A DNA stretch of 64,000 nt from Oceanobacillus zhaokaii (lineage in GTDB: Bacteria > Bacillota > Bacilli > Bacillales > Amphibacillaceae), in assembly GCF_003352005.1 (NCBI RefSeq), contig NZ_CP024848.1:1869001-1933000 (forward strand), in the 5' to 3' direction. Position 1 is the first letter of the stretch; each line of letters starts with the position of its first letter. A program made the position numbers and the translations under genes. Of the stretch, positions 36,756-36,958 are shown one piece after another. The notes under the pieces were generated by a model. It was not told the origin of the DNA, did not search any database, and worked only from the letters and a program-made list of their open reading frames with translations.

Positions 36756-36769
36756 CAAACATTCGTTCG
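36756..36769. promoter_or_regulatory. LexA box 1
   Basis: CAAACATTCGTTCG, one mismatch to CGAAC-N4-GTTCG, between lexA and the divergent SOS promoter. Confidence 0.85.
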
Positions 36770-36778
36770 AAAAAAATG

Positions 36779-36807
36779 TTGACAGGACCATGTGTTCGTG
36801 TGATAAT
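36779..36807 (+). promoter_or_regulatory. SOS promoter at the yneA position
   Basis: TTGACA (36779-36784) and GATAAT (36802-36807) with a 17-bp spacer and an extended -10 TG. A weaker LexA-like site GGACCATGTGTTCG (36785-36798) lies in the spacer. The RNA would start near 36814, so the listed boxes flank and cover it. Confidence 0.8.
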
Positions 36808-36822
36808 GAATTTAACGAATAG

Positions 36823-36836
36823 CGAACAGAAGTTCT
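36823..36836. promoter_or_regulatory. LexA box 2
   Basis: CGAACAGAAGTTCT, one mismatch to the Bacillus consensus, just downstream of the transcription start. Confidence 0.85.
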
Positions 36837-36862
36837 GTGAAACCAATTAGGGAGGAATTTAT

Positions 36863-36958
36863 ATGTTTGAAAAAATTACAAAAACAGATATATTTTATTT
36901 AGTTGCTTTTGCATTAACATTAGGATTTTTATATTTTTCGATGGTTATTAGTGGATAA
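36863..36958 (+). CDS. 31-residue SOS-controlled single-span membrane peptide (YneA position)
   Basis: Begins [11 protein letters not shown] and ends MVISG. Residues 10-29 form one hydrophobic helix, and the N terminus is charged. The RBS AGGGAGGA lies six bases upstream, ideal. It is the first ORF after a promoter with three LexA sites, and yneB and ynzC follow as in the B. subtilis yneA-yneB-ynzC operon. YneA normally is about 100 residues: one membrane helix plus a LysM domain that blocks division. Here the LysM part is absent. By place and form it resembles a division inhibitor reduced to its helix, like the 29-residue SidA of Caulobacter. Function is inferred only. Confidence 0.75.

Follow-up and report, generated by a model that had tools for sequence, protein, structure and literature searches.

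What occupies the place of the division inhibitor YneA in Oceanobacillus zhaokaii? The interval between lexA and yneB, where yneA is expected, holds in this organism a 31-codon open reading frame (ORF), and the preliminary description proposed that it encodes a single-span membrane peptide under LexA control which has replaced YneA. Below, the window denotes the whole stretch of DNA analysed, 64,000 nucleotides in length; the features of the locus are collected in Table 1. The three LexA-like boxes have 1, 1 and 2 mismatches, so that two are good and one (box 2) is weak, as first described. Farther downstream the window encodes SirA (PF10747, 38099-38557) between ynzC and yneF, recognized by a Pfam match with no NCBIfam model over its cut-off, and, after yneF, a XerC/D-like tyrosine recombinase (39059-39970), which by eye is close to the recombinase that starts viral contig L290, itself a carrier of a relative of the peptide.

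Table 1. Features of the lexA-yneB region, with positions counted in the window.
Feature	Position	Strand	Basis or remark
lexA, SOS repressor, divergent neighbour of the peptide gene	36070..36696	-	TIGR00498 252 bits; PF01726 and PF00717
LexA-like box 1, CAAACATTCGTTCG	36756..36769	.	1 mismatch to CGAACNNNNGTTCG
-35 element TTGACA	36779..36784	+	spacer to GATAAT of 17 nt
LexA-like box 2 (weak), within the promoter spacer	36785..36798	.	2 mismatches to CGAACNNNNGTTCG
-10 element GATAAT	36802..36807	+	sequence
LexA-like box 3, CGAACAGAAGTTCT, 3' of the -10 element	36823..36836	.	1 mismatch to CGAACNNNNGTTCG
Ribosome binding site GGAGG	36851..36855	+	sequence
Peptide gene at the yneA position, ATG at 36863, 31 aa, single span	36863..36958 (including stop)	+	ORF, conservation, profile search
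yneB, resolvase-like, GTG start, downstream neighbour	36988..37629	+	NF049883 350 bits

A conserved peptide gene behind LexA boxes

Using LexA as bait in a named genome collection, and keeping the best 80 of 440 loci, we found yneB inside the fetched piece in 79 of the 80 (L097 being the one without it). Of these 79, 77 have a similar ORF of 30-36 aa in the interval between the two genes; none was found there in L073 (Virgibacillus sp. MSJ-26) and L098 (Amphibacillus cookii). The ORF measures 30-31 aa in 73 of the 77 loci and 35-36 aa in the other four. According to the record titles its carriers include Oceanobacillus, Virgibacillus, Ornithinibacillus, Paucisalibacillus and Lentibacillus, and the named loci further add Aquibacillus, Sediminibacillus, Halobacillus, Thalassobacillus and Saliterribacillus. 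Residues were counted over 74 distinct coding sequences (75 including the window), with three 35-aa forms omitted and the 36-aa form cut to its inner start: D9, Y12, F16 and Y24 are invariant in all 74, and K7 (68/74) and L20 (70/74) are nearly so. The median dN/dS of the gene is 0.31 over 1078 pairs with dS of 0.1-1.5, pairs outside this range having been dropped as too close or saturated. The peptide gene is under purifying selection, and the conservation of the ORF in the lexA-yneB regions of relatives, on which the preliminary description had staked its proposal, is deep.

Variability along the peptide is periodic at 100 degrees, in the manner of a one-faced helix (permutation p of 0.014 for residues 9-28 and 0.038 for residues 10-27), and 74 of 78 copies carry no charged residue after position 10, the remaining four being the N-terminally longer forms. 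A single-sequence AlphaFold2 model consists of one helix spanning residues 7-30 with a mean pLDDT of 92, in line with the single membrane span originally predicted, although a model of such a peptide says little beyond 'helix'.

The boxes upstream are equally persistent. Across 78 loci, i.e. the window and the 77 named loci with the peptide, a sequence with at most two mismatches stands at the box 1 position in 78, at the box 2 position in 61 and at the box 3 position in 77, whereas in shuffled upstream DNA a box of this quality appears at only 0.3-0.5%. The conserved boxes thus exceed chance; the promoter is present with at most three mismatches in 78/78 loci, the shuffle control pertaining to the boxes only. 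From these three aligned LexA-like boxes, SOS induction of the peptide through LexA is predicted, as it was from the window by itself. We consider it almost certain that this is a real gene of the SOS locus together with its LexA control.

The gene lies 13-57 nt upstream of yneB in 68 of the 77 named loci, a position that would also suit a short translated leader tuning yneB expression, in which the sequence of the peptide would be unimportant. The constraint on its residues largely refutes such a reading, the amino acids being conserved at the median dN/dS of 0.31. Moreover, in nine named loci the peptide is intact at 82-1042 nt from yneB, and because the distance reaches 1042 nt it is not tied to that gene; there are also relatives in prophage-like regions that have no yneB at all. 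A leader function is hence most improbable. In one Oceanobacillus group (L067, L068, L069, L072, L074, L076 and L079) the peptide gene and yneB have come to be 127-1042 nt apart, with the peptide intact.

Relationship to YneA and other small SOS-induced membrane proteins

To cover the yneA side, YneB was searched in 299 genomes of the class and 80 loci were fetched, of which 3 belong to the family of O. zhaokaii, 20 are without a divergent lexA beside yneB and 57 have one. A LysM-bearing YneA of 88-113 aa (the start being uncertain in L143) is encoded in 50 of these 57 loci; of the other seven, four belong to family f25 (SosA-like in appearance at 78 aa in two, about 95 aa long in the other two), one to f17 and two to f33. 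The loci of the latter two families (L180 in f17; L181 and L182 in f33) are cases outside the peptide clade in which no LysM YneA separates lexA from yneB; judged by eye, L181 and L182 have ORFs of soluble appearance, and no clear gene is apparent in L180. The start of the peptide gene is 153-190 nt from the lexA start in the 77 named loci, and that of yneA 143-218 nt in 48 of 50 (249 and 285 nt in the other two). The ORF thus sits where yneA had been expected, between lexA and yneB and with the start spacing of YneA. In a LexA tree of 79 chosen rows (39 with the peptide, 30 with yneA and 10 with neither) there is a single change between yneA and the peptide, the yneA side having an SH-aLRT support of 99. 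The rows with neither gene fall among the peptide rows and are most simply losses.

A full-length yneA elsewhere in the genome, the alternative that the preliminary description had raised against itself, was seen neither in O. zhaokaii, where all 20 LysM matches are in frames of at least 179 aa, nor among the matches listed for the 159 genomes of its family. In the latter the YneA model NF010723 finds some match in 156 genomes and exceeds its cut-off in 9; the frames of the matches listed are all at least 167 aa long, and the lone visible match over the cut-off (1 of the 9) is a 653-aa multi-LysM frame, so no LysM YneA is among them. The peptide itself matches no NCBIfam and no Pfam family at E 1, NF010723 included, and the statement that the LysM domain of YneA is gone from this ORF is borne out. 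Profile comparison with hhalign of the peptide helix against YneA helices of the same order gives a score of 16.8, which 5 of 100 core-shuffled profiles equal, and against the other three YneA sets 24, 27 and 11 of 100 shuffles score as high; homology of the helix to that of YneA is weakly suggested by these values. Hence, of the original notion that YneA has been reduced to its helix, the position and the single switch on the LexA tree speak in its favour, whereas the shuffled profiles leave the common descent of the helix itself in doubt. A putative correspondence of the motif K-x4-Y-x3-F with K5/F10/F14 of YneA was dropped, the best profile alignment being in another register. The TPR protein encoded beside tig, which we take to be DdcA/YsoA, the antagonist of YneA, persists in 157 of the 159 family genomes whether or not they have the peptide, the two without it being peptide-less drafts of one genus; its co-loss with the peptide is uninformative.

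The genes of the peptide and of B. subtilis YneA (NF010723) both lie between lexA and yneB, divergent from the former, and start equally far from it, and both products have one N-terminal span. However, YneA has about 100 aa and an extracellular LysM domain needed for inhibition (PMC13396833), whereas the peptide has no extra-membrane domain and no match to the YneA model. With SosA of Staphylococcus aureus it shares LexA control, divergence from lexA, a single span and the lack of LysM, but SosA has 77 aa with an extracellular part (PMC6851548), while the peptide has few residues after the helix core and 30-36 aa in 77/77 named copies. The preliminary description had likened it to a third protein. 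This is SidA of Caulobacter, an SOS-induced small membrane protein of about 30 residues from an unrelated bacterium, which we compared by description only. SidA interacts with FtsW (as cited in PMC13396833); the part of the earlier claim that predicts a division inhibitor is plausible and the resemblance to SidA is one of analogy. With no LysM and no model match the peptide is outside the YneA family definition, and we group it with the small SOS-induced membrane division inhibitors as a new variant. We found no description of it in the open-licence PMC literature, nor in that literature a paper on YneA with Oceanobacillus or with Halobacillus; the gene is apparently undescribed.

Distribution and relatives in prophage-like regions

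A profile of 52 peptides (A1) run over the 159 genomes of the family matches at E 2.7e-4 or better in 137, among them one (G008) in which the peptide ORF is broken by frameshifts, through mutation or sequencing error; the other 22 give weaker or no matches. In 21 of these 22 lexA was located, and by eye neither a peptide-like nor a LysM ORF follows it in the 21 (the contig of G385 ends 445 nt from lexA). Of 397 genomes sampled across the order, each scored for no more than 20 candidates, 50 match at E 1e-3 and belong to families f1, f52, f57, f79 and f82; f86 yields a weak match with an internal stop. In f52, f57, f79 and f82, 16 of 16 fetched matches lie between lexA and yneB and have LexA boxes; four other fetched matches, L315-L318, are not between these genes. 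Three of the four, L316-L318 (G767:C1:1834759, G767:C1:2285466 and G689:C20:106622), are relatives that stand alone at other sites of f57 genomes, apart from lexA and yneB. The peptide clade spans at least five families.

Fourteen further profile matches were recovered in 13 genomes of the family (L273-L286, being all second matches to E 7e-5 among the matches listed). These relatives, in prophage-like regions of the same hosts, reach a best per-genome E of 4.2e-9. They encode single-span peptides whose length is about 25-44 aa, according to the start chosen, and share the D-x-F-Y-x3-F core with the host peptide; the frame of L283 is interrupted by a stop. Mobile-element neighbours were seen by eye in 12 of 13 viewed, L280 having none and L278 not being among the 13. 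Nine of the 12 have what we take to be XRE-type regulators with integrase, antirepressor or SbcC-like genes, and three presumably a tyrosine recombinase with a resolvase. No LexA-like box lies within 260 nt upstream of any of the 14. A 40-bit DNA pattern also identified four IMG/VR contigs (L287-L290) with such a peptide and, by eye, repressor-like genes adjacent to it, although L288, having the same peptide and length as contig G001:C31, is not an independent find; allowing W for F, one viral scan gave no contig and another gave a single contig that was among those known. A tblastn search of phage and plasmid collections with the peptide gave no match, although the low-complexity filter may hide one. 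In PHROGs two prophage peptides obtain E of 0.05 and 0.12 and the host peptide none, and PADLOC gave no match. A phage-early precedent is Gp11 of phiNM1, a small membrane protein that blocks division and disturbs the recruitment of DivIC and FtsW (PMC11237401); it acts in another host, its reported targets are MurG and DivIC, and we compared it by description only.

These relatives, with their shared core in the same hosts and in four viral contigs, raise the prospect that the replacement of yneA was non-homologous, i.e. that an early peptide of a prophage was recruited into the yneA slot, or conversely that phages took the host gene; such a peptide may still inhibit division. The weakness of the similarity of its helix to that of YneA also speaks for this origin, but the start spacing equal to that of yneA fits truncation in place, and the direction of transfer is unreadable from 31 residues. 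We regard a non-homologous origin as unlikely, though less so than any other alternative considered here.

FtsW as the candidate target and the proposed function

A 2026 paper on YneA (PMC13396833) concludes that in B. subtilis TM7 of FtsW is where the helix docks and that LysM is required to inhibit: the helix alone reaches midcell, yet is inactive, and YneA without LysM does not block division. Such docking without inhibition cuts both ways for a helix-only version, and we therefore examined the co-occurrence of FtsW and the peptide. SEDS proteins were sought in 22 and then in 41 genomes, and canonical FtsW was distinguished by identity, by a 50-row SEDS tree and by neighbour genes, the latter presumably encoding YlaN and PycA. 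All 25 peptide genomes tested have canonical ftsW, with 59-78% identity to the FtsW of O. zhaokaii in the 24 others; 11 of the 25 proteins were placed in the SEDS tree and the rest assigned by identity. Of 10 genomes that have no intact peptide, 8 either lack it or have a gutted copy. In six of these (G329, G331, G364, G422, G342 and G330) it was not found at an E limit of 1e-70, which short remnants would escape, and their best full-length SEDS match, a paralogue at 43-47%, is on another branch of the tree; five of the six are drafts of 2-180 contigs, G329 being a single contig, and G342 is 90% complete. In G384 ftsW has an internal deletion, with only residues 1-63 and 191-354 aligning, in different frames, between ylaN-like and pycA-like genes. 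In G447 these neighbours are 408 bp apart with nothing FtsW-like between them (400 kb searched), and the peptide is present in G448 and G449 of the same genus. The gene is kept despite the lack of an intact peptide in G411 (58%), where no yneB is in the stretch fetched beside lexA, and in G008 (69%), with the frameshifted peptide ORF. As an observation in its own right, G329, G331, G364, G422, G342, G330, G384 and G447 seem to have no intact canonical ftsW.

The losses were counted on a LexA tree that is poorly resolved and has 31 rows, of which 25 (16 with the peptide and 9 without) were scored. Peptide and FtsW each change at least four times, and there are 2 independent pairs of co-loss on starred branches (4 on all), with a sign-test p of at least 0.5. 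Phylogenetically underpowered as it is, we take the correlated loss as the best indication, short of proof, that FtsW is the target. The list of targets offered earlier (FtsA, FtsL or PBP1) would thus be better headed by FtsW, on whose TM7 the YneA helix binds (PMC13396833) and with which the peptide tends to be lost.

FtsW itself differs between the two clades. Of the residues discussed in that paper, V204, P206, L196, T153 and F166 are at the same numbers in G189, and N211 is not. Right after P206, seven residues are absent in the first 10 FtsW sequences of the peptide clade and present in all 7 of the YneA clade; the sole other clade-wide gap is one of two residues near 75. The stretch aligned to 186-221 has 28-31 residues in 25/25 peptide genomes (L356-L365 and L367-L381) and 33-40 in 21/21 YneA genomes of the order and f12 (L349-L355, L382-L389, L393 and L397-L401; of f12 only G304 is in the tree). 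In three YneA carriers of f21/f22 it has 27 residues, which as they stand is against a strict length rule; G039 groups with SpoVE-like sequences in the SEDS tree, a long branch attaches G121 to the same side and G187 is outside the rows of that tree. We think that these short stretches are not comparable, given the SpoVE-like affinities of G039 and G121. The shortening after TM7 is a single event that falls on the branch of the switch, so coincidence is possible.

We propose, with a probability of roughly 0.6 for the explanation as a whole, that the peptide is the functional successor of YneA, a LexA-repressed helix acting on FtsW. We infer a bitopic membrane peptide of 31 residues made during the SOS response, which would insert with its charged N-terminus inside and almost nothing outside. 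It would have arisen either as YneA minus its linker and LysM or as a helix-only gene put in YneA's place, a replacement that would have happened a single time, at the root of a clade spanning five or more families. Its conserved face would pack on a transmembrane helix of FtsW, the septal peptidoglycan polymerase, and septal wall synthesis would be held back until DNA is repaired. Given that removal of LysM leaves B. subtilis YneA able to dock but not to inhibit, inhibition by the peptide would have to come through the helix itself. The functional part, a minimal division inhibitor of the YneA type aimed at FtsW, we hold to be probable to nearly the same degree.

An SOS-induced peptide with one hydrophobic span might also be of the TisB/DinQ kind, perturbing the membrane or its potential and slowing growth with no binding to the divisome. 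The predicted SOS control and the span would suit it, and DinQ provides a precedent (PMC3567139). However, this peptide occupies the exact site of YneA, its four invariant residues and one-sided conservation fit a protein contact better than a pore, it has no charge beyond position 10 in 74 of 78 copies, and a membrane-perturbing action would leave the correlated loss of ftsW unexplained. Such an action is improbable in our judgement, somewhat more so than the non-homologous origin above. Returning to a helix that acts on FtsW, a wider picture can be drawn tentatively, and we lean slightly against it in its entirety: in at least five families the checkpoint would be LysM-free, with a helix of 30 residues inhibiting canonical FtsW by itself; lineages that exchanged FtsW for a SEDS paralogue would have become blind to the helix and lost it; and temperate phages of these hosts would use the same helix in their early genes against host division.

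A natural helix-only version at the same locus, deeply conserved, makes the question of how small membrane proteins stop FtsW directly testable: either the helix alone inhibits FtsW, and would be a minimal natural inhibitor of the septal wall polymerase, or the SOS brake of an entire clade works differently. With peptide and ftsW lost in pairs, FtsW is marked as the target to test, and the copies in prophages suggest use of the same contact by phages.
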